Below are positions 30,681 through 56,000 of a stretch of DNA of 64,000 nucleotides, one piece after another. The notes under the pieces were generated by a model. That model did no database searches. It was not told where the DNA came from and saw nothing but the letters and a program-made list of their open reading frames with translations. Position 1 is the stretch's first letter. Every line of letters starts with the position of its first letter. This DNA is from Cellulophaga sp. 20_2_10 (GTDB taxonomy: Bacteria > Bacteroidota > Bacteroidia > Flavobacteriales > Flavobacteriaceae). The position numbers were made by a program, and so were the translations under genes. The stretch spans positions 62,001-126,000 of the forward strand of contig NZ_JAMCOJ010000005.1 in the NCBI RefSeq assembly GCF_023476645.1, read 5' to 3'.

Positions 30681-30719
30681 GCTCTAGTATTCATTTTGTT
30701 TACTAGAGCTATTTTTTTT
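30681..30719 (+). terminator. Intrinsic terminator after the peroxiredoxin gene
   Basis: A perfect 9-bp stem (30681-30689 with 30701-30709, arm GCTCTAGTA) has an 11-base loop and is followed by an eight-T run (30712-30719). Confidence 0.88.
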
Positions 30720-30752
30720 GTAGTAAATTTAACCCTCCTAAATTTACGGTTT

Positions 30753-31844: not shown

Positions 31845-31848
31845 AAAA

Positions 31849-36518: not shown

Positions 36519-36530
36519 AATTTATCTTTT

Positions 36531-38972: not shown

Positions 38973-39006
38973 AATGTTCTTGTATAAATGATCTTTTCTA
39001 TAACAT

Positions 39007-41424
39007 TTACTCGTCTTTTAATGCATCTACCGGATTAGCTAAAGCAGCTTTTAGACTTTGCCAACTTACAGTAAGTAATGCTATTACTAAAGCGGTGCAC
39101 CCTGCAACAGCAAAAACCCACCAGCTTATTGTGGTTCTATATGCAAAACCCTCTAACCATTTAAGCATAGTAAACCAGGAGATTGGAACAGCAATTACAA
39201 AAGCTAACGCTATCCACTTAACAAAATCCTTATTTAACGCAGCTAAAATATTTATAATATTAGCTCCGTTTACTTTACGCACTCCTATTTCTTTTCTTCG
39301 TTGGACAACCGTGTATGACGTAAGACCAAATAAGCCCATAGACGCAATTAAAATTGTTAGAATCGTAAAAATTAAAAATGCACTTCCAAAATTTTTATCT
39401 TCGCTATATTGTGCCTGAAACTCTTTGTCTAAAAAAGCATAACTAAACACATTCTGGGTATGCGCATTGTCCCAAATGTTTTCTATATCTTTCAAAACAG
39501 TACCAAAGCCTGCTACAGATGTAACACTTTTATCAAATTTAACCAACAGGTTATTCTTATCTTCATGGTGCCTAATTAAAATTGGCTCTATCGCTGTTTT
39601 TAAACCAAAATGATGATAGTCTTTAATGACTCCAGAAATAACCCAATCTTCTCCCCAAAGCTTTACTGTCTTATTAACTGCATCTTCTAGGTTACTAATT
39701 TGCATATGTCTTGCCATTTTTTCATTAATGACTATTTTATTGCTACTCCTTGTTGCTGTTTCTAAAAAAGAACTTCCAGCAACAAACTCCATATCTAAAA
39801 GATTAAAATAGTTTGGACTTACGTTATAGGTATAAAATATTCTATTCTCATCTACTGTGCCATTAGGGTAGGTAATCCCTACTGTAGAAGATAAATTATC
39901 ATAACCTCCTCCTGGGTATGTTTTCGCAGAAACAACATCTTTGACATATGGCAATTTGCGTAATTCAGATTCAAATAATTCAGAATCTATTTTTAATAGA
40001 GAGTCCTCTCTTTTATTTAAAACCTCCCAATTAAATGCTACTACCTGATCTAAATCTGCTCCTATAGGTTGATTTTCTAAAAATTTAATTTGTTTAGCTA
40101 CTACAATAGTGCCTACAAGCAATACAATTGTCGCGAAAAACTGAGTTATAATAAGACCTTTTCTAATATTAAGTCCACCAAAGGAAGCCCTTACTTTTCC
40201 TTTTAAAGCAACCGCCGGAGAATAGCCACTTAATACAATTGCCGGGTATAACCCCGATAAAATTGTACCTAAAAAAATAAATCCTAAGTACGGAAGTAAG
40301 CCTACCGCAACAGATGAAGTTAAAATTAACTCTTTACCTGTGTAGCTATTAAAAAAGGGCAATATAAATACAACAACAAGCGTGGCTAATGCAATTGCTA
40401 TACTATTTAGAATAATAGACTCTAATAAAGACTGAAAAATAAGCTGTGGTCTTTGTGCTCCTGAAACTTTTCTTATTCCTATTTCCTTAGCACGTTCCAA
40501 AGATTTTGTAGTTGCAAGATTCACATAATTAAGCCACGATAATATTAAAATTATAAATGCAATAGCCAATAAAAACTTTACTCTACTTTCGCTACCATTA
40601 GCTTCTGCTTCATACGGCTTATTAGAATTTAAATGAATACTCTCTAAGGATTCTATATTATGGCGCTCATCTACATCATCTTCAAAATTACTTTCTTTTA
40701 TTTTTGACTGTAAAGCATTAACATCTGCCTTTTTATCAATCTTTATATATGTGAAAAAATTATTCTGACTCCAATTAGGCTCATACTGTCCGGGAATAGC
40801 TTTCGATGTTTTTAAGGTTTCAAAAGAAATTAAAAAATTATTTTTTAGATGGGTATTAGATGGAATATCCTTTAATATTCCTGTAACAGTAACTTTTGTT
40901 TCACCTTTCCAAAAGACAGAAAGAGTTCTGCCAATAGGATCCTCTTTACCAAATATTTTTTTAGCTAAATTTTCTTGTAGTACTATAGTATTGGGAGCTT
41001 TTAATACATTTTTTACATCTCCTTTAATCAAAGGATAATCAAACACATTAAAAAAAGATGCATCTGTAATTGCACCTTTATTATTTTCGAAAATCTCATT
41101 TTCTTTAATTAATGCGGCCTTTTGAAGATGAAAAAAGCGAACATATTCTTCTATTTCTGGGAACTCCTTTTTTAAGGTTGGTCCACTTAAATTATAACTC
41201 TGTGCATCTCCTGGAGAAAACGAGTTTCCTACCATGTAATCCATATACACACGGTATATGTTTTCGGAGCCATTAAACTTATCATAATTACGTTCATTAG
41301 CAACGTACATCATAATTAAAACAAAAGATGCAATCCCTACAGAGAGCCCCAATATATTAATAAAAGAGTATAATTTATTCTTTAACAAGTATCTTGAAGC
41401 AATCTTTAAATATAAATTATACAT
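39007..41424 (-). CDS. FtsX/MacB-type ABC permease (805 aa)
   Basis: Same duplicated plan as its neighbours: N-terminal helix about 18-40, MacB_PCD periplasmic domain, first FtsX block around RAKEIGIRKVSGAQRPQL (about 318), second periplasmic domain, second FtsX block around RRKEIGVRKVNGAN (about 710). It is the most divergent of the five: the usual LGAS after the IR-K element reads SGAQ or NGAN, and the tail is NPVDALKDE, not NPVKSLRTE. Starts 15 bp after the previous stop, within one operon. It may form heteromeric transporters with the sister permeases. Confidence 0.9.
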   Translation of the reverse strand: MYNLYLKIASRYLLKNKLYSFINILGLSVGIASFVLIMMYVANERNYDKFNGSENIYRVYMDYMVGNSFSPGDAQSYNLSGPTLKKEFPEIEEYVRFFHLQKAALIKENEIFENNKGAITDASFFNVFDYPLIKGDVKNVLKAPNTIVLQENLAKKIFGKEDPIGRTLSVFWKGETKVTVTGILKDIPSNTHLKNNFLISFETLKTSKAIPGQYEPNWSQNNFFTYIKIDKKADVNALQSKIKESNFEDDVDERHNIESLESIHLNSNKPYEAEANGSESRVKFLLAIAFIILILSWLNYVNLATTKSLERAKEIGIRKVSGAQRPQLIFQSLLESIILNSIAIALATLVVVFILPFFNSYTGKELILTSSVAVGLLPYLGFIFLGTILSGLYPAIVLSGYSPAVALKGKVRASFGGLNIRKGLIITQFFATIVLLVGTIVVAKQIKFLENQPIGADLDQVVAFNWEVLNKREDSLLKIDSELFESELRKLPYVKDVVSAKTYPGGGYDNLSSTVGITYPNGTVDENRIFYTYNVSPNYFNLLDMEFVAGSSFLETATRSSNKIVINEKMARHMQISNLEDAVNKTVKLWGEDWVISGVIKDYHHFGLKTAIEPILIRHHEDKNNLLVKFDKSVTSVAGFGTVLKDIENIWDNAHTQNVFSYAFLDKEFQAQYSEDKNFGSAFLIFTILTILIASMGLFGLTSYTVVQRRKEIGVRKVNGANIINILAALNKDFVKWIALAFVIAVPISWFTMLKWLEGFAYRTTISWWVFAVAGCTALVIALLTVSWQSLKAALANPVDALKDE

Positions 41425-41439
41425 AGCATTATTTTATAA

Positions 41440-43827
41440 TTACTCCGTTCTTAAACTCTTTATTGGATTTGCTGTTGCTGCTTTTACAGCCTGAAAACTT
41501 ACCGTTAGTAATGCTATTAAAACAGCACACATACCTGCAACAAAAAACACAAACCAGCCTATATGTACTCTAAAAGCAAACTCCTCTAGCCATTTTTGCA
41601 TAAGAAAATATGCAACCGGAAAAGCAACTAGTAATGATACTCCTATTAACTTTAAAAAATCTTTAGATAACATTTGTGTAATCCCTACAACACTTGCTCC
41701 TAACACTTTGCGCACACCTATTTCTTTTTTGCGTTGCTCTGCTGTAAATGCAGCTAAGCCAAATAAGCCTAAACACGCTACAAAAATCGCTAGTAAACAA
41801 AATAATAATCCAACCTTTGCCATTTTACGGTCTTGGGCATATAGCTGCTCCATATTTTTATCTAAGAATGTATAATCAAAACTAGAATCTGGAGCAACCT
41901 TGGTATATGCTGCTTCTAATTGCTGCATTGTACTTGTTACAGATGCGCTATTAAAACGAACCAATAAATAGGGTCTTCCTTCAAACCTACTGTTATGAAA
42001 AGCATAAGCACCAATTGGCTTGTGTAGCGACTCAAAATTAAAATCGTCTACAACGCCAATTATAGTAGCATCGTCTCCTAATTGCATATCTACTTTTTTA
42101 CCGATTGCCTCTTCTGGCGTAAACCCTAAATAAGTAATTGCTTTTTTATTTAAAACAACATCTACAAGCGTGTCTCCTTCTTGTTTTACACTTGGCAATG
42201 TTTTACCTGCCAAAAGCTTTAATTGCAACACCTCTAAAACACTAGCATCTGCTACGTTGGTCTGTATATTTTTGCCATTTTCATCTTGATCATCTTTATG
42301 TAAAGATCTTCCACTAACATCCATACCAGGAAAACCTTGAGCAGAACCTACTTCTATAACCGAGCTTAATTTTTTAACCTCATTTGCTAAAGCCTGTTTG
42401 TTGGTATATGTTTCTATTGCGGCGGTAGAAACTGCTACAACATTTTGAGGGGTATAGCCTAAATCCTTGCTTTTCATAAACTCTAACTGTTGGTAAACCA
42501 CTAACACGCCAACAATTAAAACTACAGATGCTGTAAATTGTAATACCACCAATGCTTTTCTTACCACAGCATTACTCACCGTTCTGTTTGCTGGCTTTAA
42601 AATAGAGCTAGGTGAAAAACCAGCTAAGTAAAATGCAGGATAAGAACCCGCAATTAACGTAGTTATGAGCCACACCAAAAACATACCTAAGATAAAATCT
42701 GCTCTTAAAAGAAAATTATAGTCTAAGCTAGCGCCAGTTATACCATTAAAAACAGGGATAATAACCACAGAAAGCACAACGCCAATACACAGCGCTATTA
42801 AAGTTAGCAATCCTGTTTCTGAATAAAACCTAGCTATTAAACTTTTAGACGAAGCTCCTAATGTTTTATTTATACCCACATCTTTTGCTCTTTTTTGAGA
42901 ACGAGCCGTCATAAGATTCATATAATTAACACAGGCAATAAGTAAAATAAGCAATGCTAAAAATGATAAGTTTTTAATTTCCGAAATACTTCCTATTCTA
43001 GAAGTGTACGTACTTGTATAATCTTTAGAGTATAAATGTACTTCTGATAATGGTTGTAATGTAAGTGTATACCATTGCCCTTCCTTATCTACATTTTTAT
43101 CTAAAATTTGCTGTATTTGTTTTTCTGAAGTTGATTTAGAGGCGTTCTGTTTTAACTGCACATAGGTCTCAAAACTAGAGTTACTCCAACTTGGTTCTTT
43201 AAAAAAATATGTAGTACTAAATGATGCTATTAGATTACAGTCTATAGTGCTATTTGCTGCAAAATCTTCAAAAACGCCAGTTACCTCTAACTCTGTTTTG
43301 TCATCTACCTTTATCGTTTTCCCTATTGGATCTATGGTTCCAAAGTATTTTTCTGCTGCACTTTTAGATAAAACTACAGTGTTGGGTCTTGTAATTGCAG
43401 TAGCGGCATCTCCTTTAATAAATTTAGTTTCAAAAATTGAAAATAATTCTTGGTCGCACCAAAATAATCTTTTTTCTAAAAAATTATTGTTGTTTGCTTT
43501 TATAAAGGCTGTTTCACCAAAGCTGTGTTGCAACATTCTGGCAGTATGTTTTACTGTAGGTAATTCATCTTTTAAAGTAGGTGCAACTGCAGCCGGTGCA
43601 GTAGCCATAATTTCCTTATCAAAGGCATCGCCAGTTGTATTAACCAAGACTCTATACGTATCTGCATAATTTTTATACTGGGTATCAAAACTTTTCTCAA
43701 AAGTGATAAAAGCAAAAAGCAATATGGCAATTGTTAAACCAATAGATAACCCTAAAATGTTTAATGAAGAAAACATTTTATCCATCTTTAGACTTCGCCA
43801 CGCTATTTTAATATGATTTTTAAACAT
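41440..43827 (-). CDS. FtsX/MacB-type ABC permease (795 aa)
   Basis: 795 residues with the paired MacB_PCD/FtsX layout. Key blocks: N-terminal SLNILGLSIGLTIAILLFAF helix (about 22-41), RAKDVGINKTLGASSKSL (about 315), a second periplasmic domain, RKKEIGVRKVLGAS (about 700), and tail NPIKSLRTE. Asp replaces the usual Glu in the first block (KDVGINK). It follows the GIN-domain protein by 10 bp and precedes another permease by 15 bp, all in one operon. Substrate is unknown; adjacent secretion and adaptor genes suggest export or envelope maintenance. Confidence 0.9.
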   Translation of the reverse strand: MFKNHIKIAWRSLKMDKMFSSLNILGLSIGLTIAILLFAFITFEKSFDTQYKNYADTYRVLVNTTGDAFDKEIMATAPAAVAPTLKDELPTVKHTARMLQHSFGETAFIKANNNNFLEKRLFWCDQELFSIFETKFIKGDAATAITRPNTVVLSKSAAEKYFGTIDPIGKTIKVDDKTELEVTGVFEDFAANSTIDCNLIASFSTTYFFKEPSWSNSSFETYVQLKQNASKSTSEKQIQQILDKNVDKEGQWYTLTLQPLSEVHLYSKDYTSTYTSRIGSISEIKNLSFLALLILLIACVNYMNLMTARSQKRAKDVGINKTLGASSKSLIARFYSETGLLTLIALCIGVVLSVVIIPVFNGITGASLDYNFLLRADFILGMFLVWLITTLIAGSYPAFYLAGFSPSSILKPANRTVSNAVVRKALVVLQFTASVVLIVGVLVVYQQLEFMKSKDLGYTPQNVVAVSTAAIETYTNKQALANEVKKLSSVIEVGSAQGFPGMDVSGRSLHKDDQDENGKNIQTNVADASVLEVLQLKLLAGKTLPSVKQEGDTLVDVVLNKKAITYLGFTPEEAIGKKVDMQLGDDATIIGVVDDFNFESLHKPIGAYAFHNSRFEGRPYLLVRFNSASVTSTMQQLEAAYTKVAPDSSFDYTFLDKNMEQLYAQDRKMAKVGLLFCLLAIFVACLGLFGLAAFTAEQRKKEIGVRKVLGASVVGITQMLSKDFLKLIGVSLLVAFPVAYFLMQKWLEEFAFRVHIGWFVFFVAGMCAVLIALLTVSFQAVKAATANPIKSLRTE

Positions 43828-43837
43828 AACTTTAGTA

Positions 43838-44590
43838 TTACTTTATTTTCTGAATAGTTGCTTCACCGATAATAATGCCTTTATCTAATTCTGGATTTCC
43901 TTGGTAAGCAACAGTTGCTTCACCATAAGCTGTAACTTTTAATCTTTTAGAAACCTGTACACGATAACTACCTTCACCATAAGCTGTAATTTTTGTGTTA
44001 TCGTTTTTTATGCCCAATGTGTTAATTGTAGTTTCGCCATAAGCTGTAATTTTTAGGTTTTCTACACTACCCGTTTTTAGTTCTAAAAAGCTCTCGCCGT
44101 ATATTGTTGCGTGTAAATCTTTAAGGTCTGTATCATTTAAAAACACCTGAGATTCGCCATATATTTTTAATCGCAATTTGTTTTGTTTAAGTAAGCTTTT
44201 ACACACTATAGTTTCTTCTCCTCTTAAAGACAATTCTTCAATTTTTTTATATGTTACTGTAGCTTTTACTACTGTACCTTTATAAATAGATTTACGTTGC
44301 TTATACCCATTTTTATTTGTTTTTTCGCTTTTAGTATATTCTTTTGCTCCTTCTAAATACACACGTAAAGTTTTACCAGAAACCTCAACGTTTATCTTGT
44401 GTTTCTCTATCGTGCTACTTTCAATTGTTACACTTTCTGTTTCTCCTTCTATAAAGGTTACTTGTATATGCGGACTAACAATTACTTTGTTAAAAGCAGC
44501 TACTTTGGTTACATTATTTTGTGCCGTAACACTCATAGTCATCACTACTAAAAAAAGTGTTGCTAGTTTTTTAATTTGAATGATTTTCAT
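43838..44590 (-). CDS. Secreted GIN-domain (DUF2807-like) beta-helix protein
   Basis: 250 residues with a signal peptide (about 1-23, ending SVTAQ) and an N-terminal strand-rich region typical of the head-GIN family (FNKVIVSPHIQVTFIEGE). From about residue 120 the chain repeats a YGE-type motif roughly every 20 residues: RGEE (123), YGES (144), YGES (164), YGET (184), YGEG (204), YGEA (223) and IGEA (242). This implies a right-handed beta helix with a ladder of Gly-Glu turns. It is periplasmic or surface-exposed. Placed between two permease genes with gaps of 10 and 26 bp, it is a candidate cargo or partner of the transporter. Confidence 0.8.
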   Translation of the reverse strand: MKIIQIKKLATLFLVVMTMSVTAQNNVTKVAAFNKVIVSPHIQVTFIEGETESVTIESSTIEKHKINVEVSGKTLRVYLEGAKEYTKSEKTNKNGYKQRKSIYKGTVVKATVTYKKIEELSLRGEETIVCKSLLKQNKLRLKIYGESQVFLNDTDLKDLHATIYGESFLELKTGSVENLKITAYGETTINTLGIKNDNTKITAYGEGSYRVQVSKRLKVTAYGEATVAYQGNPELDKGIIIGEATIQKIK

Positions 44591-44616
44591 AGGTTCTATT
44601 TTTTTGATTGATGAAT

Positions 44617-47046
44617 TTATTCTGCTCGTAAACTTTTAACGGGATTTGTTATTGCTGCTTTTATACTTTGATAGCTTACAGTGACAACAGATATTGCAAG
44701 TACCAAAAATGCTATATAAACAAAAGACCAACCGTTTATTTCTATTCGGTATGAAAAATCTTCTAACCACTTTGTCATTACAAACCAAGCCAATGGTATA
44801 GCTATTACTATAGACACTACTACTAACTTTAAAAAGTCTAATGTTAACTTGTAAACAATGTTGCCAATACTTGCTCCTAGAACCTTGCGCACTCCTATTT
44901 CTTTTATTCTTTTTTCTGCATTAAAGGTTGCCAAACCAAACAGGCCTAGACAAGCTATTAAGATGGATAAAATTGTAAATGCAATAAATATTTTTCCCAA
45001 ACGCTCTTCTGCTTGGTATACATCATTAAAAGAATCATCTAAAAAATAGTAATTAAACGGTTGTCCAGAAGCAACGTTTCCCCAAAGTCCTTGAATACTT
45101 GCAATAGATTTTGCAAAATCTCCCTGACTTAATTTTACCACTAATTTACTGCTTACTCTACGGCTTAATCTAAAACTTACCGGATCTATAGCATTACGTA
45201 ATGTAGAGATATGAAAATCTTTAACTACACCAATAACTTTATATTCAATTTTATCACCGTCGTCTACCAATGTCATTCCTAAAGCATCCGTAGGGTTAAT
45301 TCCTAATCTAGACAAAGCCGTTTCGTTTACAATAATAGCAGTAGAATCTGTTTTATACTTTGTATCAAAATCTCTTCCGGCTAAAATATTTAAACTTAAA
45401 GTTGATACATAATCTTCATCTACATCCCATTTTTGCATTTGTACCACAGCATCTTCAACAGCTCTTCCTTTTACTGTAAAAGATTGATCTGTTCTGTTAG
45501 ATGGTGTTGGCAAAAAACTAGTAAGTGACACACTTTTTACACTCGCTAATTTCTCTATTTCTTGCTTAAACGATGCTACTTGGTCTCCCGCAGCATAAAC
45601 ATCATCTAAAACCAAAACCTGCTCTTTGGTGTAACCAATATCTTTACCTTTTATATATTGTAGTTGCTGAAAAACCACTAATGTACTCCCCATTAAAAAC
45701 ACAGAAATTGCAAATTGAAAAACCACTAATCCGTTTCTTATTTTTCCTCCGCCTGCGCTAGATTTTCCACCCCCTTTTAAAACCATTACTGGTTTAAATT
45801 TTGACATAAAAAATGCAGGATAAATACCAGAAAGCAAGCCCAAAATTAAAGCAAAACCTAAAAGAGCTAACCAAAAAAGTGGATTTAAAAACGGAATCTC
45901 TAATGATTTATCTGCTAAATCATTAAATGAAGGTAAAATTAAAAATGCTACAAAAACTGCAAAAACTAATGCAATTAATGATACCAATCCTGACTCTATT
46001 AAAAACTGTTTTATTAAGTCTGACTTAGAAGAGCCTAGTGTTTTACGGACACCTACTTCTTTTGCTCTTTTTAAGGATTGCGCCGTAGAAAGATTCATAA
46101 AATTTACACAAGCTAACACTACTAAAAACAACCCTATAAAAGATAAAATATAGATGTTTTGTATGTTGTTATTCTGATTTAGTTCTGCAATACGGTCTGA
46201 GTGTAAATGTATTTTACGAAGCGGCATGGCACTAAAAACATAAAAGTTTCCGTCCCTTATAAAACTCTCCACCGTCATTGTTGGAGCAAATGTTTTTTGC
46301 GCGTAAGGAGCAACGTAGTTTATAAATATATTTTGTAGTCTTTTATTAAAGTCCTTTATATTGGTGTTAGAGTTTAATTTTACAAATGTGCTAAAGTTAT
46401 TACTTCCCCAAGTAACTTCTTTTGCATTTGGGTTACTAGCCATAGACATTAGCATGTTATAATCTCTTAAAAAAGAATTCTTAGGAAAATCTTCTATAAC
46501 CCCAGTTACTGTATATACCTCATCATTGTCTAAAATTACTTGTTTACCAACAACGTCTTCTTCTGTAAATAGCGTTTTTGCTTCTGACCTGCTGAGTATT
46601 AAAGTATTTGGCTCTAGTAATGCTGTTTCTTTTGTGCCTTGTAACAATTCTAAACCAAACATTTTAAAAAAAGATGGGTCTGCATAAGCGTTTCCATTAA
46701 CCTTTACATTTTTATCAGAATTTGTTTGGCGTACTAACATACCGCCCCAACCTCTTAATCTTGTTGTAAGTTGTACTTCTGAGTATTCACTTTCTAAAAC
46801 CGAAGCCATTGGTGGTGTAACAACAGCTAAATTATTAGCCTGTGTTCCAAACTTAATATCTACATTAATTCTGTGAATTAATTCTTCATCAGTAAACATT
46901 TTATCATAGCTAAGTTCATCATAAATATATAATGAAATTAACAACGCACCTGCAACACCTATAGCTAAACCAAATACATTTAAAAAAGTAAAAAACAGAT
47001 TGTTCTTTAAATTACGCCACGCTATTTTTAGTTGATTTTTAAACAT
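44617..47046 (-). CDS. FtsX/MacB-type ABC permease (809 aa)
   Basis: 809 residues from ATG 47046. A longer frame adds 23 residues that run into the promoter and lack family resemblance. Layout as in its paralogues: helix about 20-42, MacB_PCD, first FtsX block RAKEVGVRKTLGSSKSDL (about 336), second periplasmic domain, second block RIKEIGVRKVLGAS (about 717), tail NPVKSLRAE. It is the first gene after a promoter region (47086-47214) that shares its upstream element with the TolC promoter, so this gene heads the second permease unit. Confidence 0.9.
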   Translation of the reverse strand: MFKNQLKIAWRNLKNNLFFTFLNVFGLAIGVAGALLISLYIYDELSYDKMFTDEELIHRINVDIKFGTQANNLAVVTPPMASVLESEYSEVQLTTRLRGWGGMLVRQTNSDKNVKVNGNAYADPSFFKMFGLELLQGTKETALLEPNTLILSRSEAKTLFTEEDVVGKQVILDNDEVYTVTGVIEDFPKNSFLRDYNMLMSMASNPNAKEVTWGSNNFSTFVKLNSNTNIKDFNKRLQNIFINYVAPYAQKTFAPTMTVESFIRDGNFYVFSAMPLRKIHLHSDRIAELNQNNNIQNIYILSFIGLFLVVLACVNFMNLSTAQSLKRAKEVGVRKTLGSSKSDLIKQFLIESGLVSLIALVFAVFVAFLILPSFNDLADKSLEIPFLNPLFWLALLGFALILGLLSGIYPAFFMSKFKPVMVLKGGGKSSAGGGKIRNGLVVFQFAISVFLMGSTLVVFQQLQYIKGKDIGYTKEQVLVLDDVYAAGDQVASFKQEIEKLASVKSVSLTSFLPTPSNRTDQSFTVKGRAVEDAVVQMQKWDVDEDYVSTLSLNILAGRDFDTKYKTDSTAIIVNETALSRLGINPTDALGMTLVDDGDKIEYKVIGVVKDFHISTLRNAIDPVSFRLSRRVSSKLVVKLSQGDFAKSIASIQGLWGNVASGQPFNYYFLDDSFNDVYQAEERLGKIFIAFTILSILIACLGLFGLATFNAEKRIKEIGVRKVLGASIGNIVYKLTLDFLKLVVVSIVIAIPLAWFVMTKWLEDFSYRIEINGWSFVYIAFLVLAISVVTVSYQSIKAAITNPVKSLRAE

Positions 47047-47085
47047 GATTTTAATTTTAACTGATGAATTACTCCCTAAGGATGC

Positions 47086-47111
47086 CAAGTGTATTTCTAT
47101 TTCTGTGCCAA
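47086..47111 (-). promoter_or_regulatory. Sigma-54-like promoter for the second permease unit
   Basis: On the minus strand TTGGCAC (TGGCAC at 47110-47105) is followed by N5 and TAGA in place of TTGC, so the -24 half is perfect and the -12 half degenerate (only G kept). TSS would fall near 47085, 39 bp before the start codon. An alternative reading is TTG-N15-TACACTTG, one base off the housekeeping -7 box with a short spacer. Confidence 0.5.
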
Positions 47112-47170
47112 ACAATTAAGTAACTGCCAATCAGAACCTTAACAGAACATAAATAACCTAAATCACATTT

Positions 47171-47214
47171 AATTGTAAAATATTTTTACACAAAGTGTCA
47201 ATTATTTAGACGCT
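47171..47214 (-). promoter_or_regulatory. Upstream element shared with the TolC promoter (copy B)
   Basis: Contains TTGTAAAATAT, then TTTTACA, then TGTCAAT. Aligned without gaps to 53177-53221 it matches 33 of 45 positions, 26 of the first 32. Its near edge is 61 bp from the TGGCAC at 47110, the same distance as in the other copy. Probable binding site of the sigma-54 activator encoded at 53291. Confidence 0.65.
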
Positions 47215-47225
47215 AAAAAAAAGAA

Positions 47226-49583
47226 CTACTCTGTTCGCAAGCTTTTAACAGGGTTGGTTATTGCTGCTTTTATGGCCTGAAAACTTACCGTTAACAATGC
47301 AATTGTTATTGCTCCTATACCCGCAAGCGCAAACATCCACCATTGCATATTTATACGATAAGCATAGTCTTGCAACCAACTAGACATTGCCCACCAAGCT
47401 AATGGTATTGCTATAGCTATAGATACTATTACAAGTTTTAAAAAGTCTTTAGATAATAAGTTTACAATGTTTACCACGCTTGCGCCTAAAACTTTACGCA
47501 CGCCTATTTCTTTACTTCTTTGTTCTGATGTGTATGCGGCTAAACCAAACAAACCTAAGCAAGAGATAAGTATTGCTAGTAAGGCAAATATTTGCGATAG
47601 TCTACCCACTAACATTTCACTTTTAAATTTTTGATTAAAAGCATCATCAACAAACTCATACTCAAACGGAAAAGCTGGGTTATGTTTTTGCATTATACCA
47701 GCCATACCTGCAAGTGTATTTTTTATGTCTGTATTATTAGCAATACGTGCATACATATACCTTGCTTCACTAGGTGCATTTAAAAATATAACCGGATCAC
47801 TTTTACCATACATATCGCCATATAAAAAGTCTTTAACCACCCCAACAACCTTGTATTTATCGTCTCCAAAATAAATGCTTTTACCAACTGCAGAAACAGG
47901 ATCTATGAGCTTAGCAAACGACTCTGTTATTATAAAATTTACACTGTCTAATTCTGGTTTCTGTTTAAAATTTCTACCATCTATAACATCCATACCTGCC
48001 GTAGCAAGAAAATCTGAATTTATGTACCTAAAAGAAATAAGCATTTCACTATTTGCTTCTGCCATACCAGACCAAGTTGCTCCAGAACCATTATTACCAA
48101 TAGATAGTGTGTTATAGCTATTTAAACCAACATTATCTACCATACCCGTGGCTAACATATCTTGTTTAATTGCAGTGTAGTTTTTAACAACATCTCCTCT
48201 AACATTCATTGTTACAAGATTGGTTTTATTATACCCTAACTGTCTGTTTTTTACGTGTTGTACCTGCTTATACACCACTATAGTACTTATAATTAGTATT
48301 ATTGATGCTGCAAACTGTGTTACAACCAATCCTTTTCTTATAAATATTGATCCTTTTTGATTGCTACTAATTCCTTTTAAAACAGTTACAGGTAAAAATG
48401 AAGACAAGTAAAATGCCGGGTAACAACCTGCAAAAACACCACAAAAAAGTGTAATTCCCACTAATACGAGCCAATGCATTGGGTTGGCTACTCCCATAAT
48501 TAATTGTTTTTCTATGACAATGTTAAATTGTGGCAACAATAAAAACACAAGCAAAATACTAACCAAAGTAGCTATAGTAGCAATAACCAAAGACTCTGTT
48601 ATAAACTGAAAAATTAAACGTTTACGACCTGCTCCTAACACTTTACGCACACCAACCTCATTGGCTCTTTTAGCGCTACGTGCGGTAGAGAGATTCATAA
48701 AATTTATACAGGCAATTACTAAAATAATCCAAGCAATTACAGAGAATAAATTAACGTATGTTATTCTACCACCAACTTGTACTCCTCCCTCAAAATTATC
48801 GCGCAAACGCCAATCTAGCATACTATGCATAAAAGCATACGTATCACTATCTTCTGTTTTGGTTTGCAAAAACTTTTTTACGGTAGTATTTACGACTGCT
48901 GCATTTGCTTTTTTATCTAATTGTATATAGGTATCTACTGAGTTATTTCCCCAAGTTTGTAAATTATCGTTATCTTTTGCATAAGGCTCAAAAGGTGCCA
49001 GCCAATTAAATTTTAAAGTAACATTTTCTGGGAAATCTGCTACTACTGCTGTTACGGTATACGTTTTTGTATTGTCTATTTTTAAAACTCTACCTACAGC
49101 GTTATTACCAGCTCCAAATAGCTGAGATGCTGTTTGGTTGGTTAGCACAATAGCATCTGTACTACTAAAGGCTGTGTCTGCATTACCTTGTATAAAATTT
49201 AAGCTAAAAATGTCTATAAAATCTGGATCTGCGTAATACCCTTTTTTATAAAAAGAGGCATCATCTAATGTAAAAAGATGTTCTTCATCTCTAACTCTTG
49301 TTGCATTTACTATGCCTGGTACTTCTTTTTTTAAAGCTTCTGCCAAAGGCCCTGGAGTAGAAGTAAACGTACGCCACTCACCATTATACTGTTGGTTTGT
49401 TGGCAAATAGTACACCTGTTCTTTATTTGGGAAAATTGCATCGTAGTTTACCTCATCTTCTACCCATAAAAAAATAAGACTAGCACAGGTTATACCCATT
49501 GCCAACCCAAATATGTTGAGAAAACTATAGCCTTTATTTTTTAATAGACTCCTAAATGCAATTTTAAAATAATTTTTGAACAT
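47226..49583 (-). CDS. FtsX/MacB-type ABC permease (785 aa)
   Basis: 785 residues with the same duplicated plan: helix about 19-40, MacB_PCD, FtsX block RANEVGVRKVLGAGRKRL (about 305), second periplasmic domain, RSKEIGVRKVLGAS (about 692), tail NPVKSLRTE. It follows the MacB-type ATPase with a 64-bp gap that contains clustered TGATTGAT repeats. It probably forms the core transporter with that ATPase, the HlyD-type adaptor and the TolC-like channel encoded upstream. No hairpin terminator is seen after it, so transcription may run into the second permease unit. Confidence 0.92.
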   Translation of the reverse strand: MFKNYFKIAFRSLLKNKGYSFLNIFGLAMGITCASLIFLWVEDEVNYDAIFPNKEQVYYLPTNQQYNGEWRTFTSTPGPLAEALKKEVPGIVNATRVRDEEHLFTLDDASFYKKGYYADPDFIDIFSLNFIQGNADTAFSSTDAIVLTNQTASQLFGAGNNAVGRVLKIDNTKTYTVTAVVADFPENVTLKFNWLAPFEPYAKDNDNLQTWGNNSVDTYIQLDKKANAAVVNTTVKKFLQTKTEDSDTYAFMHSMLDWRLRDNFEGGVQVGGRITYVNLFSVIAWIILVIACINFMNLSTARSAKRANEVGVRKVLGAGRKRLIFQFITESLVIATIATLVSILLVFLLLPQFNIVIEKQLIMGVANPMHWLVLVGITLFCGVFAGCYPAFYLSSFLPVTVLKGISSNQKGSIFIRKGLVVTQFAASIILIISTIVVYKQVQHVKNRQLGYNKTNLVTMNVRGDVVKNYTAIKQDMLATGMVDNVGLNSYNTLSIGNNGSGATWSGMAEANSEMLISFRYINSDFLATAGMDVIDGRNFKQKPELDSVNFIITESFAKLIDPVSAVGKSIYFGDDKYKVVGVVKDFLYGDMYGKSDPVIFLNAPSEARYMYARIANNTDIKNTLAGMAGIMQKHNPAFPFEYEFVDDAFNQKFKSEMLVGRLSQIFALLAILISCLGLFGLAAYTSEQRSKEIGVRKVLGASVVNIVNLLSKDFLKLVIVSIAIAIPLAWWAMSSWLQDYAYRINMQWWMFALAGIGAITIALLTVSFQAIKAAITNPVKSLRTE

Positions 49584-49596
49584 GGTGATTGGCTAT

Positions 49597-49645
49597 TTTA
49601 ATTGATTGATAGATTGATTGATGGTTTTGATTGATGATGAACTCT
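49597..49645. repeat. Clustered TGAT tetranucleotide repeats in the ATPase-permease gap
   Basis: The plus strand reads several TGATTGAT units here (for example AATTGATTGATAGATTGATT and TTTTGATTGATGATGA). On the coding strand this is an AATC-rich leader directly before the permease ATG. Similar shorter runs precede the ATPase start (50348-50361) and the GIN gene (44604-44611). Confidence 0.55.
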
Positions 49646-49647
49646 TA

Positions 49648-50346
49648 CTATTTTACTACTGCTTCAAAAGGTTTGTTATGACTTTCTGTTACTATTTGGC
49701 CATCAAAAAGATTTACGACTCTGTGTGCATAATGCGAGTCTCTATCTGAGTGCGTTACCATTACTATAGTTGTACCTTCTTGGTTTAGCTCGGTTAACAG
49801 GTTCATTACTTCTATACCGTTTTTAGAGTCTAAGTTACCTGTTGGCTCATCTGCTAGTATTAATTTTGGATTTGTAACTACTGCTCTGGCAATGGCTACA
49901 CGTTGTTGCTGACCACCAGATAATTGCTGTGGAAAATGCTTTTGTCTGTGTGCAATTTTCATACGTTCTAAAACAGCCATTACTTTTTGTTTGCGCTCTG
50001 CTTTGTTCATTTTTAAATAGATTAATGGCAGCTCTACGTTTTCAAAAACGGTAAGCTCGTCTATTAAATTAAAGCTCTGAAAAACAAACCCTAAATTACC
50101 TTTACGCAAACCTGTACGCTGGTTTTCTTTTAAACCTCCTACTTCATGACCTGCAAATTGATAACTGCCTTCTGATGGATTGTCTAACATTCCTATAATA
50201 TTTAGTAAGGTAGATTTACCACAACCTGATGGCCCCATTATGGCTACAAACTCGCCTTCGCCAACATTTAGGTTTACACTGTTTAGCGCCAAAGTTTCTA
50301 CTTCTTCGGTTCTAAAGCTTTTTTTAAGGTCTTTTATTTGTATCAT
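49648..50346 (-). CDS. ABC transporter ATP-binding protein, MacB type
   Basis: 232 residues from ATG 50346. The open frame continues 38 codons upstream, but that part covers the 82-bp repeat and has no family resemblance. Walker A GPSGCGKST (about residue 41), Q-loop FVFQSFNLI, signature LSGGQQQRVAIARAV, Walker B LILADEPTGNLDSKNG and switch His in VTHSD are all standard. With the following permease it forms a MacB-like exporter. It lies after the adaptor gene in the order tolC-hlyD-ATPase-permease. Confidence 0.94.
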   Translation of the reverse strand: MIQIKDLKKSFRTEEVETLALNSVNLNVGEGEFVAIMGPSGCGKSTLLNIIGMLDNPSEGSYQFAGHEVGGLKENQRTGLRKGNLGFVFQSFNLIDELTVFENVELPLIYLKMNKAERKQKVMAVLERMKIAHRQKHFPQQLSGGQQQRVAIARAVVTNPKLILADEPTGNLDSKNGIEVMNLLTELNQEGTTIVMVTHSDRDSHYAHRVVNLFDGQIVTESHNKPFEAVVK

Positions 50347-50380
50347 TTTGTTGATTGATTTTTTTAATGTGATTATATCT

Positions 50381-50462
50381 TGTGTTAGGGATTGTAGTGT
50401 AAATCCTTTTTTATTTTTCTTAAAAAAGATTGAAACGTAAAGCCCGCCCGTAGGGAACACCC
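50381..50462 (-). repeat. 82-bp intergenic repeat, copy 1
   Basis: Matches 59711-59792 over 82 bases with 9 differences and no gaps. Inside it, a unit of the form GATTG-A--G-AAA-CC occurs twice in the same orientation, separated by a T-rich/A-rich hairpin (TTTTTTA...TAAAAAA). It ends on the hlyD stop codon and starts 34 bp before the ATPase ATG, so it lies inside a transcribed operon. Confidence 0.85.
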
Positions 50463-51712
50463 TATTTTAAAACTATTTTTTCTGCTTCTCCAAAACTATC
50501 GTAATTAGAGGTAATTACATTTTCGCCGGCTTGCAAACCTTCTAAAACCTCGTAATGTTTAGAGTTTTGCTTGCCTATTCTTATGTTTCGTTTTAGTGCT
50601 TCGCCACCATCTGGGTTTACTACAAAAATCCACTGGCCTCCTGTGCTTTGAAAAAAGCTGCCTTTAGATATTAAAAGTGCATCTGAAGAGGCTCCTAATT
50701 GTAGTTTTACATTAAAACTTTGACCTGCTCTTATGTTTTCTGGTTTTTCTGCAGTAAATACTAGATCTACTTTAAATTTACCACCACGAACTTCTGGATA
50801 TACTTTGCGTAAACGCAGATTATACGTTTTTCCATTACGCTCAAAAGAGGCATTTAAATCTCTTTTTACACGGTCTATATAGTGTTCATCTATCTCGGCT
50901 TCTATTTTATAATCTGTTAGCACATTTATTTGTCCTATACGCTGACCTTGGTTTATGCTTTGGCCAATTTCGGCATCTAAAAACCCTAATTGACCATCTG
51001 CAGGCGCACGCACATTTAAGTGGTCTAGACGCTCGTAAACCATAGATAATGTCTTTTGCATTCTGTTTAAATCTGTATCTAAACCGGCTAATGATGTGTT
51101 ACGCATTTTATCATCTTGTTCTGTCTGTATTTTTACAATATCATGCTGTTTTAAAGATAGCTCGTAGTTTTCTTTTGCTGTTAAAAAGGCTTCTTTAGAG
51201 ATTAACCCGTCATTGTAAAGCTCTTGGTTTTGTTGGTAATTACGCTTTAAACGGGTTAACTCATAAGATGTGGTTGCTAAAGATTTACGGCCTTCTACTT
51301 GTCTAGAGTCAAAGGTTAGTTTGGTAGACCTTAAATCGTTTTGTTTTAGCGCTAGGTTACTCTCGCTTGCTAAAATTTGTTCGTATAAATTGCTGTTTTC
51401 TAGCTTTAGAATAATGTCGCCCTTTTTTACCATTGCGCCTTCTTCTATCAATTTCTCGGTTACTCTACCGCCTTCATAAGCATCCATATAAATAGTTGCT
51501 ATTGGCGCTGCGCTACCGTTAATTGTAATGTAATCGTCGAACTTACCTTGAGTAACTTCTGCTATAGATAATTTATCTTTCTCTGTCCTAAAAGTAGCTA
51601 CAGAATTGCTCCAAATTATTTTGTAGGCTGCAAAAGCAACTACTAGTCCAATTGCAATATATGCATAGTGCTTTGGGCGTAATCCTTTTTTCTTTTCTAA
51701 TTGAATATCCAT
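50462..51712 (-). CDS. HlyD/MacA-type periplasmic adaptor
   Basis: 416 residues. An N-terminal membrane anchor (about 15-33, HYAYIAIGLVVAFAAYKII) leads to a first beta-barrel/lipoyl half (AAPIATIYMDAYEGGRVTEK), then a long alpha-helical hairpin (about 110-225), the second lipoyl half (LNVRAPADGQLGFLDAEIGQ) and the C-terminal membrane-proximal domain ending EAEKIVLK. Such adaptors bridge the inner-membrane ABC transporter and outer-membrane TolC. It starts 14 bp after the tolC-like stop, so they are one transcript. Confidence 0.92.
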   Translation of the reverse strand: MDIQLEKKKGLRPKHYAYIAIGLVVAFAAYKIIWSNSVATFRTEKDKLSIAEVTQGKFDDYITINGSAAPIATIYMDAYEGGRVTEKLIEEGAMVKKGDIILKLENSNLYEQILASESNLALKQNDLRSTKLTFDSRQVEGRKSLATTSYELTRLKRNYQQNQELYNDGLISKEAFLTAKENYELSLKQHDIVKIQTEQDDKMRNTSLAGLDTDLNRMQKTLSMVYERLDHLNVRAPADGQLGFLDAEIGQSINQGQRIGQINVLTDYKIEAEIDEHYIDRVKRDLNASFERNGKTYNLRLRKVYPEVRGGKFKVDLVFTAEKPENIRAGQSFNVKLQLGASSDALLISKGSFFQSTGGQWIFVVNPDGGEALKRNIRIGKQNSKHYEVLEGLQAGENVITSNYDSFGEAEKIVLK

Positions 51713-51726
51713 CTATATTGTAATTG

Positions 51727-53076
51727 TTAGTTTATGGTAAATACTGGTAATCCGCGATAAAACGCCAACGTACTATGGTTCACTTTTAATCTTATTTGTA
51801 CTTGTAAATTCTCATTTTTAGCTGTGGTGTATAATACTTTTGCTTGGTACAGTTCTACAGCAGAAATCATTTCTTTCTCGTACTTTTTTTGTGAGATAGA
51901 AAAACTAAGCTCTTGTGCTTTTAGCTTTTTTATACTCTGTAAATTCTCTATTTCTAATGCATTTTTTTCTTGTACCAATTGTTGTATTAATTTGTACAAC
52001 TCTTGTTCTTGAATTTTTAAATTATTCTCTGCCTGTTGCAGTGCTATTTTCTGTTGCTTAATTTCTGACCTTCCAGACCACTTATTGCTAATTGGTATGT
52101 TCATAGAAAGACCAATAGACCTAGAGGCATTGTCTCTTATTTGATTTTTAAACGATATTATTTCTCTACTAATATCGTCTATATTAGTCTCGTAATACCC
52201 TGTGCCATACCCTGCATTTATCGTTATAGATGGGTATAAACCGCCTCTTGCAATTGCAACATCTTTTTCAGCCGCCTTTACACGCAACTGACTAGATTTT
52301 ATACTTGGTAAAAATCCTTTCGCTTTTGCGTAAACAGCATCTGACACTGTTGTATCTACTTCTTCATTTTCCTTAAAAGTTAATAGTTCTTCTTTTAGGT
52401 TTATAGTAGATACACCCTCTAAATTCATTTCCTGAATTAAATTTAGTTCTGCTGCTGCCAATTGGTTTTCTGCCTGCGTTACAGATAGTTTATCGGTTAA
52501 TAAAACAGATTCTGCTTCGTACATATCTGCCTGCGCTATTAAACCTAGCTCTAATTGTTTTTTTATAAATGCATAGTTGGTGTCTGATATACTTACTTGT
52601 TCTTTTGCTATAGCCACAGCTCCTTGAAAAAAACGAATGTCATAAAAGGCAGACATTACCCTAAATGCTAGTAAGTATTTTTGTTGTTCTGCATCTTCTT
52701 GTACTGCCTTGTAAATATATTTAGATGCCTTAATTGTGTTTATTCTTTGAAAACCTCTAAAAATATCTATAGAAGAATTTAAGCTGTAGTTATTAGAAAA
52801 GAAATCGGTGTCTATAACATTATTATTGTTTGGGTCTGTAGATCTACCATATCTAATAACATAATCTGCATACCCATTTACACTTGGCAACAAATTACGT
52901 ATTGCTTGTTTGTGCGTTTCTTTACTAGAGGCAACAGTATAAGCTTGGTTGGTTAATTCTAAGTTATGAGAAACTGCATAGTTAATACACTCGTCTAAAG
53001 ACCAACTTTGTTGTGCTTTAATAGGCAAGCTAACTAGTAGCAGCAAAAAAAGAATACGTGTTATTTTTAAGTTCAT
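51727..53076 (-). CDS. TolC-like outer-membrane efflux protein
   Basis: 449 residues from ATG 53076. The longer frame adds 34 residues that come from the promoter. A signal peptide (MNLKITRILFLLLLVSLPIKAQ) is followed by QSWSLDECINYAVSHNLEL, the start of the first OEP helix repeat, and a second repeat near residue 250 (TVSDAVYAKAKGFLPSIKSS). Long coiled-coil regions between them form the periplasmic tunnel. It trimerises in the outer membrane to give the exit duct. First gene of the export operon, facing the divergent two-component genes. Confidence 0.93.
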   Translation of the reverse strand: MNLKITRILFLLLLVSLPIKAQQSWSLDECINYAVSHNLELTNQAYTVASSKETHKQAIRNLLPSVNGYADYVIRYGRSTDPNNNNVIDTDFFSNNYSLNSSIDIFRGFQRINTIKASKYIYKAVQEDAEQQKYLLAFRVMSAFYDIRFFQGAVAIAKEQVSISDTNYAFIKKQLELGLIAQADMYEAESVLLTDKLSVTQAENQLAAAELNLIQEMNLEGVSTINLKEELLTFKENEEVDTTVSDAVYAKAKGFLPSIKSSQLRVKAAEKDVAIARGGLYPSITINAGYGTGYYETNIDDISREIISFKNQIRDNASRSIGLSMNIPISNKWSGRSEIKQQKIALQQAENNLKIQEQELYKLIQQLVQEKNALEIENLQSIKKLKAQELSFSISQKKYEKEMISAVELYQAKVLYTTAKNENLQVQIRLKVNHSTLAFYRGLPVFTIN

Positions 53077-53091
53077 AATTTTATTGTGTGC

Positions 53092-53117
53092 CAAAACTAA
53101 TACTATTGTTGTGCCAA
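53092..53117 (-). promoter_or_regulatory. Sigma-54-like promoter of the tolC-hlyD-ABC operon
   Basis: Minus strand: TTGGCAC (TGGCAC at 53116-53111), N5, then TAGT instead of TTGC. TSS would be near 53091, 15 bp before the ATG. The -24 half is perfect, the -12 half keeps only the G. A perfect TAGTTTTG housekeeping -7 box also fits at 53099-53092, but with only 15 bp to the TTG. Confidence 0.5.
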
Positions 53118-53176
53118 AAACGTATCCAACTAGAAAACAGCGCTTTAACCTCATTAAACTGAATGTACGAATATGC

Positions 53177-53221
53177 AAGTGTAAAATATATATACAAATA
53201 ATGTCAATATTTTTTACACTT
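53177..53221 (-). promoter_or_regulatory. Upstream element shared with the second permease promoter (copy A)
   Basis: 45 bp with outer perfect inverted arms AAGTGTAAAA (53177-53186) and TTTTACACTT (53212-53221), and an inner TGTA-N9-TACA. It matches 47171-47214 at 33 of 45 positions and lies 61 bp from its TGGCAC, as that copy does. It also lies 70 bp from the divergent regulator gene and could serve in autoregulation. Confidence 0.65.
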
Positions 53222-53290
53222 ATAAAATACTAAGCCATATCATTTGTAATTTTAAACTATAAATCTGTTACCAACCAAAACAATTTTGTT

Positions 53291-54661
53291 ATGCAAAAAG
53301 GTAAAGTATTAATTGTAGACGACAATAAAAGTGTATTAAGTGCATTAGAGATTTTATTGCAGTTTGAGTATGAAAAGGTAGATACTTTAGGCAACCCTAA
53401 CCTCTTATCTTCTTTTAAAAATTTAGAAGATTATGATATTGTTCTTTTAGATATGAACTTTTCTGCTGGTGTTAATACTGGTAATGAAGGTTTGTATTGG
53501 AATAGAGAAATTAAAAAACGTGCGCCACATATTTCTGTTATTATGATGACGGCTTATGGCGCAATAGACCTTGCTGTACAAGCACTAAAGGAAGGTGCAA
53601 CAGATTTTATTTTAAAACCTTGGAATAATGACAAGCTACTTGCTACATTAAAATCTGCTTACCAGTTACGCAAATCGCAAAAAGAAGTTTCGATTTTAAA
53701 AGAGAAAGAGAACTCTTTAAAGCAGGTTATTAATCAGAATAAAAATTACATTATTGGTAATTCTAAAGCACTAACTTCTGTTTTAAACTTAGTGCAAAAA
53801 GTAGCTAAAACAGACGTAAATGTATTAGTAACCGGAGAGAATGGAACAGGAAAAGAATTAATAGCAAGAGAACTACATAATTTATCTAACCGTAAAAATG
53901 AAGTTTTTATTGGGGTTGATATGGGTTCTATCTCTGAAACTTTGTTTGAAAGTGAACTTTTTGGACATACCAAAGGAGCTTTTACAGACGCCAAAGAAGA
54001 TAGGGCTGGTAAGTTTGAAGCTGCAAATGGCGGAACCTTATTTTTAGATGAAATAGGCAACCTAAGCCTACAAACTCAGGCTAAACTATTATCTGCTATA
54101 CAAAACAGAGTTGTGGTGCGTGTAGGCTCTAACAAACCTATACCAGTAGACATACGTTTAATTTGTGCCACCAATTGCAATCTAGAAAAAATGGTTGCAG
54201 ATGGTCTTTTTAGAGAAGATTTAGTATACCGTATAAACACCATACACGTAGAAGTACCCGCGCTTAGAGAAAGAGATGGCGACATTTTAATTTTAGCCGA
54301 TTTTTACCTCACTAAATTTATGACCAAATACGGCAAACTTGGTTTGCGTATTAATAACCTTGCACAAGAAAAACTACTAACATATAGTTGGCCTGGGAAT
54401 GTTAGAGAACTACAACACACTATGGAAAGAGCTGTTATTTTATGCGATGGAAATGTGCTTAAACCAACAGACTTTATTTTAAACGAGAAAGGTACACCTA
54501 CTTTAGACATCAAAAATGTAACCCTGTCTGAAATGGAACTGCTCCTAATTAACGATGCCTTAAAAAAGCACGATGGCAATTACAGTGCTGCAGCAAACCA
54601 ACTAGGAATTTCTAGACAAACACTATATAATAAAATTAAAAAGACAGGAAATGGCGAGTAA
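53291..54661 (+). CDS. NtrC-family sigma-54 activator with GAFTDA loop
   Basis: 456 residues. Receiver domain about 4-125 with phospho-acceptor Asp54 (IVLLDMNF) and Lys in ILKPWN. AAA+ domain about 150-390 with Walker A GENGTGKE, the sigma-54 contact loop reading GAFTDA at residues 229-234 in place of GAFTGA, and Walker B LFLDEIGN. A Fis-type helix-turn-helix at the end reads SAAANQLGISRQTLYNKIK. It is divergent from the tolC operon, whose promoter has a likely binding site. Its last 11 bp overlap the kinase gene, so the two proteins are made together. Confidence 0.94.
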   Translation: MQKGKVLIVDDNKSVLSALEILLQFEYEKVDTLGNPNLLSSFKNLEDYDIVLLDMNFSAGVNTGNEGLYWNREIKKRAPHISVIMMTAYGAIDLAVQALKEGATDFILKPWNNDKLLATLKSAYQLRKSQKEVSILKEKENSLKQVINQNKNYIIGNSKALTSVLNLVQKVAKTDVNVLVTGENGTGKELIARELHNLSNRKNEVFIGVDMGSISETLFESELFGHTKGAFTDAKEDRAGKFEAANGGTLFLDEIGNLSLQTQAKLLSAIQNRVVVRVGSNKPIPVDIRLICATNCNLEKMVADGLFREDLVYRINTIHVEVPALRERDGDILILADFYLTKFMTKYGKLGLRINNLAQEKLLTYSWPGNVRELQHTMERAVILCDGNVLKPTDFILNEKGTPTLDIKNVTLSEMELLLINDALKKHDGNYSAAANQLGISRQTLYNKIKKTGNGE

Positions 54662-56000
54662 AAGTTTCTATTTTCAGTTAGTACTTAGGGTTGTTTTTAT
54701 TACACTATCTGCATTTGGCCTAGCCTATTTTGGATTACAAAAAGAATACATTGTTGCTACTGTATTTTTAATTATTCTGGTTTTATTAACCGCATATTTA
54801 ATAAAATATGTAAACCACACCAACCGTAAAATTGCTTATTTTTTTGAGTCTATTAAAAATGAGGATTTTACACTACGTTTCCCTGAGTATGAAAATGTAA
54901 AGTCTTTAAAAGAACTAAATCGTAGCCTTAATATGCTTAATGCTATGATTCATAAAATACACGTAAAAAACCAGGTTCAAGAAAAATACTATCAGGAAAT
55001 ATTAAAACACGCAGACATTGGTATTTTAACTATAAATGATAAAGGTCACATACTATTTGCAAACCCTAGAGTAGAGCATTTACTAAATTACAAACCACTT
55101 AACCATATTAAGCAGTTGCAACAGGTAGATGTTAATTTGTATAATTTATTTGCGAAACTAGAGCCTTTTCAGCGTAAATTAATAGAGCTAACTAACGAAA
55201 GAGAAAAAATACAATTAACGCTAAAATCTACCACAGTAACTTTAGACAAGCAAAATTTATTATTGGTAGTAGTACAAGATATACAGAGAGAGCTAGAAGA
55301 AAAGGAGGCCGATTCTTGGGAGAAACTAATTCGTGTTTTAACGCACGAAATTATGAATACCATAGCGCCAATTACCTCTATATCTGAGTCTATTTTAAAC
55401 TACTTTAAAAAAGAAGACGGCTTAATTCCGCTTGAAGATTTAACCGAAAAACACATACAAAACACCTCTAAAGGTTTAGCCGTAGTAAAAGAACAAGGAA
55501 ATAATTTAATGGACTTTGTACAAAGCTACCGCAGCTTTTTAAGTATTCCGGCACCAGACAAAAGCTTAGTTAAAGCAGAACATTTAATACACAAAGTGTT
55601 TGTTTTAATAGACCAAGAAAATCAAAATAACAACATTAGTTTTTCTTCTAATCTAACCACTAATGAATTAGAGCTGTTTATTGATGAAAAACAAATAACG
55701 CAGGTACTTTTGAACCTCTGCAAAAATGCAGTACAATCTATTGGCGAACAAGAAAACGGGAGTATTATAGTTACTGCTGGTATTACAGATAAAAACGAAA
55801 AATTTATTACTGTTACAGATAATGGTCCTGGAATACCACCAGAGCTAATAGATGAAATTTTTATTCCGTTTTTTACAACCAAAAATACAGGAACAGGAAT
55901 TGGCCTTAGCTTGTCTAAACAGATCTTAAGATTACACGGCGGAAGCTTAAAATTAAGAAGTATACCAAACCAAGAAACTGTTTTTACTTTGTTGTTTTAA
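54651..56000 (+). CDS. Membrane sensor histidine kinase (NtrB/NtrY-like)
   Basis: 449 residues. Two N-terminal helices (about 8-27 and 33-52) with almost no periplasmic loop suggest sensing within the membrane or of envelope stress. A HAMP-like linker and a PAS-like domain (about 110-220; DIGILTINDKGHILFANP) follow. The H-box is LTHEIMNTIAPITSIS (His about residue 232), the N-box LLNLCKNAVQSIG, G-boxes DNGPGIPP and GTGIGLSLSKQI. It should phosphorylate the overlapping regulator. It ends 6 bp before the convergent arfB-like gene; no terminator hairpin is seen between them. Confidence 0.92.
   Translation: MASKSFYFQLVLRVVFITLSAFGLAYFGLQKEYIVATVFLIILVLLTAYLIKYVNHTNRKIAYFFESIKNEDFTLRFPEYENVKSLKELNRSLNMLNAMIHKIHVKNQVQEKYYQEILKHADIGILTINDKGHILFANPRVEHLLNYKPLNHIKQLQQVDVNLYNLFAKLEPFQRKLIELTNEREKIQLTLKSTTVTLDKQNLLLVVVQDIQRELEEKEADSWEKLIRVLTHEIMNTIAPITSISESILNYFKKEDGLIPLEDLTEKHIQNTSKGLAVVKEQGNNLMDFVQSYRSFLSIPAPDKSLVKAEHLIHKVFVLIDQENQNNNISFSSNLTTNELELFIDEKQITQVLLNLCKNAVQSIGEQENGSIIVTAGITDKNEKFITVTDNGPGIPPELIDEIFIPFFTTKNTGTGIGLSLSKQILRLHGGSLKLRSIPNQETVFTLLF

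Follow-up and report, generated by a model that had tools for sequence, protein, structure and literature searches.

A predicted two-component, sigma-54-type regulon for tripartite export in Flavobacteriaceae, with tandem operators at a near-constant distance from the promoter

Upstream activating sites of the NtrC/NifA type are dyads, bound by Fis-type HTH dimers, that lie some 100 bp upstream of the sigma-54 promoter. In BceRS-BceAB systems, an intramembrane-sensing kinase, whose two membrane segments are joined by a short loop, is combined with an OmpR-type regulator and FtsX-type permeases. A comparable promoter arrangement is described for orp of Desulfovibrio vulgaris, whose sigma-54 promoters depend, according to the available part of the source, on the activator DVU2106 and IHF, with activator sites at -88 and -131 and functional IHF sites at -43 and -79 (PMC3897727); the same text prints WATCARxxxxTTR as the E. 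coli IHF consensus. Regarding the GAFTGA loop of activators, the published excerpts available report that NorR G266D, carrying a G-to-D change in the loop, is active and constitutive and forms open complexes in vitro (PMC2941729), that GAFTDA is among the loop variants thought to be active in D. vulgaris (PMC4641369), and that VfmH, a GAFTDA protein, pulled down no RpoN, with the cost of the G-to-D change to sigma-54 contact stated as an open question (PMC10714721). For Bacteroidia, the accessible text of PMC12316311 describes COG0577 permeases as sigma-54-regulated, keeping only activators with an exact GAFTGA. Sigma-54 control is little mapped in the phylum Bacteroidota, and the literature searched, mostly without subscription papers, yielded no description of the regulon presented here or of its list of targets.

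The present analysis concerns a window (the whole stretch of DNA analysed, 64,000 nucleotides) from Cellulophaga sp. 20_2_10, for which an earlier note had proposed that a single two-component system switches on two export gene units through one shared upstream element. The predicted regulon belongs to a familiar class, that of NtrC/sigma-54 regulons, and is unusual in its activator loop and its -12 element. Its genes are the following:

53291..54661, plus strand: NtrC-type response regulator with a GAFTDA loop (receiver, sigma-54 AAA+ and Fis-type HTH domains)
54651..56000, plus strand: histidine kinase (PAS and HATPase domains; a short loop separates its two N-terminal hydrophobic segments)
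47226..53076, minus strand: unit A, tolC-HlyD-type adaptor-ABC ATPase-P1, a predicted operon
51727-53076, minus strand: tolC (unit A)
50462-51712, minus strand: HlyD-type adaptor (unit A)
49648-50346, minus strand: ABC ATPase (unit A)
47226-49583, minus strand: MacB/FtsX permease P1 (unit A)
35856..47046, minus strand: unit B, P2-DUF2807-P3-P4-P5-ABC ATPase 2, a predicted operon
44617-47046, minus strand: permease P2 (first gene of unit B)
43838-44590, minus strand: DUF2807 gene (unit B)
41440-43827, minus strand: permease P3 (unit B)
39007-41424, minus strand: permease P4 (unit B; named by sequence reading and BLAST)
36531-38972, minus strand: permease P5 (unit B)
35856-36518, minus strand: ABC ATPase 2, ABC2 (unit B; named by sequence reading and BLAST)

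The domains of the two plus-strand genes bear out the claim that an NtrC-family activator and a kinase are encoded beside the first copy of the element, the regulator matching PF00072, PF00158 and PF02954 above cut-off in the Pfam scan. By reading of the search results, the genome encodes four NtrC-type activators including this one, together with a single copy of RpoN. Neighbouring genes of unit B are separated by coordinate differences of 11 to 35. Ranked by E-value, the NCBIfam model closest to the adaptor is that of the darobactin exporter adaptor DarC, whose cut-off is not reached. A second pair of kinase and NtrC-type regulator genes lies at 30696-33171 in the window, its regulator having the standard GAFTGA loop.

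Upstream of each unit lies one copy of the element, copy A before tolC and copy B before P2, with the following parts:

53180..53218, unstranded: operator A (predicted), two dyads, from alignment, genome pattern search and family conservation
53180-53196: copy A dyad 1, TGTAAAATATATATACA
53202-53218: copy A dyad 2, TGTCAATATTTTTTACA
47174..47212, unstranded: operator B (predicted), two dyads, from alignment and genome pattern search
47174-47190: copy B dyad 1, TGTAAAATATTTTTACA
47196-47212: copy B dyad 2, TGTCAATTATTTAGACG, with ACG as its 3' end
53135..53147, unstranded: IHF-type block of copy A, AAACAG-N4-TTA, differing at one position from WATCAR-N4-TTR
47129..47141, unstranded: IHF-type block of copy B, AATCAG-N4-TTA, agreeing with WATCAR-N4-TTR throughout
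53102..53116, minus strand: sigma-54-type -24/-12 promoter of tolC, TGGCAC-N5-TAGT
47096..47110, minus strand: sigma-54-type -24/-12 promoter of permease P2, TGGCAC-N5-TAGA
53089..53093, minus strand: second TGGCA box of copy A, 23 bp below the -24 box and close to where the tolC transcript is expected to start
47083-47087: second TGGCA box of copy B, 23 bp below the -24 box

Realignment of 53177-53221 with 47171-47215 reproduced the ungapped agreement at 33 of 45 positions that had been noticed earlier. Elsewhere in the 64-kb window, the first copy had next-best ungapped matches of 29/45 on the plus and 28/45 on the minus strand, its near-palindromic self-match (34) being excluded, and a composition-only estimate for both strands of the window gives about 4e-4 expected chance matches of the 33/45 quality. 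The equal distance to a minus-strand TGGCAC was likewise confirmed, GTGCCA starting at 53111 and 47105 with 60 bases between it and the 45-bp segment in both copies (61 by coordinate subtraction). The earlier description of three cores within one 45-bp unit was right as to the shared sequence and not as to its structure, each segment consisting of two 17-bp dyads, TGT-N11-ACA, arranged in tandem with a 22-bp repeat. Constancy of geometry holds for this revised anatomy too, with 63 bases between the TGCCA of the -24 box and dyad 1, and the same 22-bp repeat, in copies A and B alike.

Within the whole genome (4,168,929 bases), the tandem-dyad pattern, three mismatches at most being allowed, matched at these two places only, so that a genome-wide scan, which the earlier note had called for, found the element not scattered. 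A looser second dyad pattern, with up to two mismatches, gave two further weak places (L170 and C34), and no TGCCA box was found on reading the sequence of L170. On the regulator side of operator A, a block like TTTGTAGTTTT at 53240-53253 recurs in aligned relatives and may be part of the regulator's own promoter.

The distribution of the element was followed in a sample of the family comprising 299 genomes from 236 genera, using the composite pattern TGCCA-N61..65-TGT-N11-ACR-N5-TGT-N11-ACR, which leaves the middle block unconstrained, and the reversed pattern as control. The composite gave 68 matches in 39 of the 299 genomes, and the control none. Orthologs of the regulator (E at most 1e-160; identity 62-100%) occurred in 44 genomes and in 37 of the 236 genera, and the composite was found in 37 of these 44 genomes versus 2 of the 255 others (Fisher's exact p about 1e-37, genomes being treated as independent although they are not). 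The two composites from genomes in which the regulator was absent at the threshold (G160 and G223) were judged to be chance matches, since the centres of their dyads are out of keeping with the element and the sequences show no resemblance to it. Seven regulator genomes had no exact composite; a search without the box requirement showed dyads in six of them, and in G054, the seventh, a contig end lies shortly upstream of the regulator. Overall, this dyad-only search gave matches in 10 of 11 regulator genomes and in none of four regulator-free ones. Most of the dyad-only finds examined had TGCCA at -67 to -69, while five (L155, L161, L168, L169, L176) kept the middle block and had a box variant with one or two mismatches, and three (L170, L174, L177) had dyads with the box not at its usual place. 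A wide occurrence of the composite across the class was rejected: 295 class genomes, eight of them other members of the family, returned only this genome (two matches) and G542, the latter match, as far as its sequence was displayed, being unlike the element; the reversed pattern likewise matched once (G539).

A second view of the promoter was obtained from the best 80 of 178 loci fetched by the regulator protein alone, ignoring the promoter; this set includes Cellulophaga, Aquimarina, Arenibacter, Zobellia, Maribacter and Allomuricauda and partly covers genomes already sampled. Dyads lie upstream in 77 of these 80 loci, and the element is thus conserved in relatives, a check that had been set for it. 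Of the remaining three, L219 breaks off 38 bases before the regulator gene begins, and L229 and L238 have the regulator with no operator found within the stretch fetched. The regulator adjoins tolC in every locus in which the operator was seen beside it, and therefore co-occurrence alone cannot separate the regulator from its neighbours. Distant relatives of the regulator (L028-L042; minus-strand loci oriented by hand, L037 as fetched) showed no common upstream operator. Two of the distant loci, L038 and L040 (45-47% identical to the regulator), carry tandem TGTTCG-type dyads with the same 22-bp repeat about 120 bp upstream, hinting at a wider family with altered specificity.

Together with 11 promoters from same-genus loci fetched by regulator, the 68 family matches make up 79 distinct composite promoters, whose next gene encodes TolC in 41 cases, a MacB/FtsX permease in 30, and an ABC ATPase and a DUF2807 protein in one each, 73 in all. 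Six have no assigned target: L105, L108 and L117 lie too close to the end of the stretch for a call, the target of L111 resembles DUF2807 by eye, and L141 and L145 are the two composites from regulator-free genomes.

Within the regulator-anchored promoters, TGCCA is exact in 74 of 77 and has one mismatch in the other three; exact boxes lie at 67, 68 and 69 nt in 16, 53 and 5 promoters, respectively. The T and the G of the -12 element are present in all 77. When the 79 composite promoters are read with GG-N10-GC spacing, the -12 G is found in 75 and the -12 C in only 15, and the two window copies, in which the -24 TGGCA box is exact, have T and A at the C position. The loop of the regulator departs from the standard, being GAFTDA instead of exact GAFTGA, and the D is found in all 80 orthologs (GAFTDA in 34, GSFTDA in 46; best 80 of 178 loci); the other three activators of the genome have GAFTGA twice and GAFTSA once. 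The presence of D in 80/80 orthologs, together with an operator with conserved -24/-12 in 77/80 loci, argues that sigma-54 contact is retained despite the loop D; the failure of VfmH to pull down RpoN (PMC10714721) speaks against it. A filter for exact GAFTGA, such as that described in the available part of PMC12316311, would miss these 80 regulators.

The second TGGCA box lies 23 bp further down and is present in 32 of 41 TolC promoters and in one of 30 permease promoters, the latter being copy B of the window; at 23-25 bp, it occurs in 56 of the 77 regulator-anchored promoters. Its reading as a further sigma-54 promoter was rejected, as there is no conserved -12 G in its register, and so was its reading as a housekeeping -7 box, for which the register of TAnnTTTG is found in 10/77 only. 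As a speculation that we consider rather unlikely, the natural G[A/S]FTDA clade may have co-evolved with promoters that keep the -12 G, release the C and carry this second box at the expected tolC start. If so, loop and promoter would form a matched, altered mechanism of sigma-54 opening dedicated to the export regulon.

The -7 element of the Bacteroidota housekeeping sigma factor has the consensus TAnnTTTG, and the first box in the window is followed by TAGTTTTG, which is similar to it. The dyads could accordingly be bound by the regulator while transcription is by the housekeeping factor and not by sigma-54, as the departure of the loop from GAFTGA and the mostly missing -12 C might also suggest. 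We regard this as very improbable, since TAnnTTTG is in register in only the 10 of 77 regulator-anchored promoters mentioned above, against a near-invariant -24 TGCCA and an invariant -12 T and G. More weight attaches to a doubt about the middle block alone, which could be the site of another factor or merely a curved A+T-rich spacer, leaving the remaining model intact. WATCAR-N4-TTR occurs between box and dyads at a fixed offset in 32 of the 79 composite promoters as a perfect match and in 53 with at most one mismatch, compared with 4 and 25, respectively, in 3,871 tests at other offsets of the same sequences; in 58 of the 77 regulator-anchored promoters it has no more than one mismatch, and some of the other 19 have it shifted by one base. 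The consensus, however, derives from E. coli, the genome's two HU/IHF-family proteins both score below the NCBIfam IHF model cut-offs, and adjacent bases are conserved as well (AA at positions 13-14, T at 20). The block nevertheless matches the IHF consensus as printed in the available text of PMC3897727 and is placed between box and activator site like the IHF sites described there. A non-IHF block is a serious possibility, if somewhat improbable.

A different explanation concerns the likeness of the two copies, which might be a relic of a duplicated permease unit with its leader and imply no joint regulation of both units. P1 and P2 are indeed paralogous permeases, and the number of internal operator copies varies from none to two among relatives in the stretches fetched (before permease units, one in L045, L046, L049 and L052, and two in L047 and L048). 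The two permeases have nevertheless diverged, P2 matching P1 at about 37%, while operator and geometry were kept, and composites stand upstream of unrelated target types and at dispersed loci. An uncultured Flavobacteriaceae genome (G035) has nine composite promoters on four contigs (C1, C2, C3 and C5; regions L107-L114) and appears to represent a dispersed form of the regulon. We consider a duplication relic very improbable.

The anatomy and fixed geometry of the element, its conservation, its co-occurrence with the regulator and the identity of its targets are direct readings of the sequence, and what they describe is very probably a small sigma-54 regulon of Flavobacteriaceae, governed by a two-component system and serving tripartite (TolC-adaptor-ABC) export. 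In the mechanism that we infer, the kinase (54651-56000) would phosphorylate the NtrC-type regulator (53291-54661), which would bind the tandem dyads upstream of tolC and P2, with centres near -98 and -120 as counted from the -24 box. An IHF/HU-type protein would bend the WATCAR-N4-TTR block, near -51, bringing the activator ring within reach of the RNA polymerase that sigma-54 holds at the -24/-12 box, so that units A (tolC-hlyD-ABC-P1) and B (P2-DUF2807-P3-P4-P5-ABC2) would fire together. The interpretation of the earlier note is supported as largely right: the proposal of a single regulon under one two-component system is upheld by conservation, by tracking of the regulator and by TolC and permease targets, but requires amendment for the tandem operator, the IHF-type block, the GAFTDA loop and the -12 C, which is mostly absent. 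A whole regulon, with its predicted sensor, activator, operator, bend site, promoter and targets, can thus be read from sequence.

When compared with known systems, the locus resembles NtrC/NifA sites in that its dyad operators stand some 100 bp upstream of the sigma-54-type promoter and its regulator has a Fis-type HTH, and differs from them in its TGT-N11-ACA pairs every 22 bp, the near-constant distance and the export-gene targets. Like BceRS-BceAB, it has, near FtsX-type permeases, a kinase whose two hydrophobic segments are separated by a short loop, and by analogy it is possible that a signal is passed through the pump to the kinase; unlike BceRS-BceAB, it combines an NtrC-type regulator with a tripartite pump including TolC. 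With orp, as described in the available part of PMC3897727, it shares a -24/-12-type promoter and an IHF-type block between the promoter and palindromic, here predicted, activator sites, whereas activator type, genes and phylum are different and one tandem-dyad geometry is repeated here at several promoters of one regulon. The COG0577 permeases of PMC12316311 are likewise ABC-type antimicrobial peptide permeases under predicted sigma-54 control in Bacteroidia, for which the accessible text of that source names no regulator, operator or TolC. Finally, the loop change is the same G-to-D as in NorR G266D, which the excerpt of PMC2941729 presents as a laboratory mutant that escapes regulation, while in the regulators described here the D is natural and present in 80/80 orthologs.
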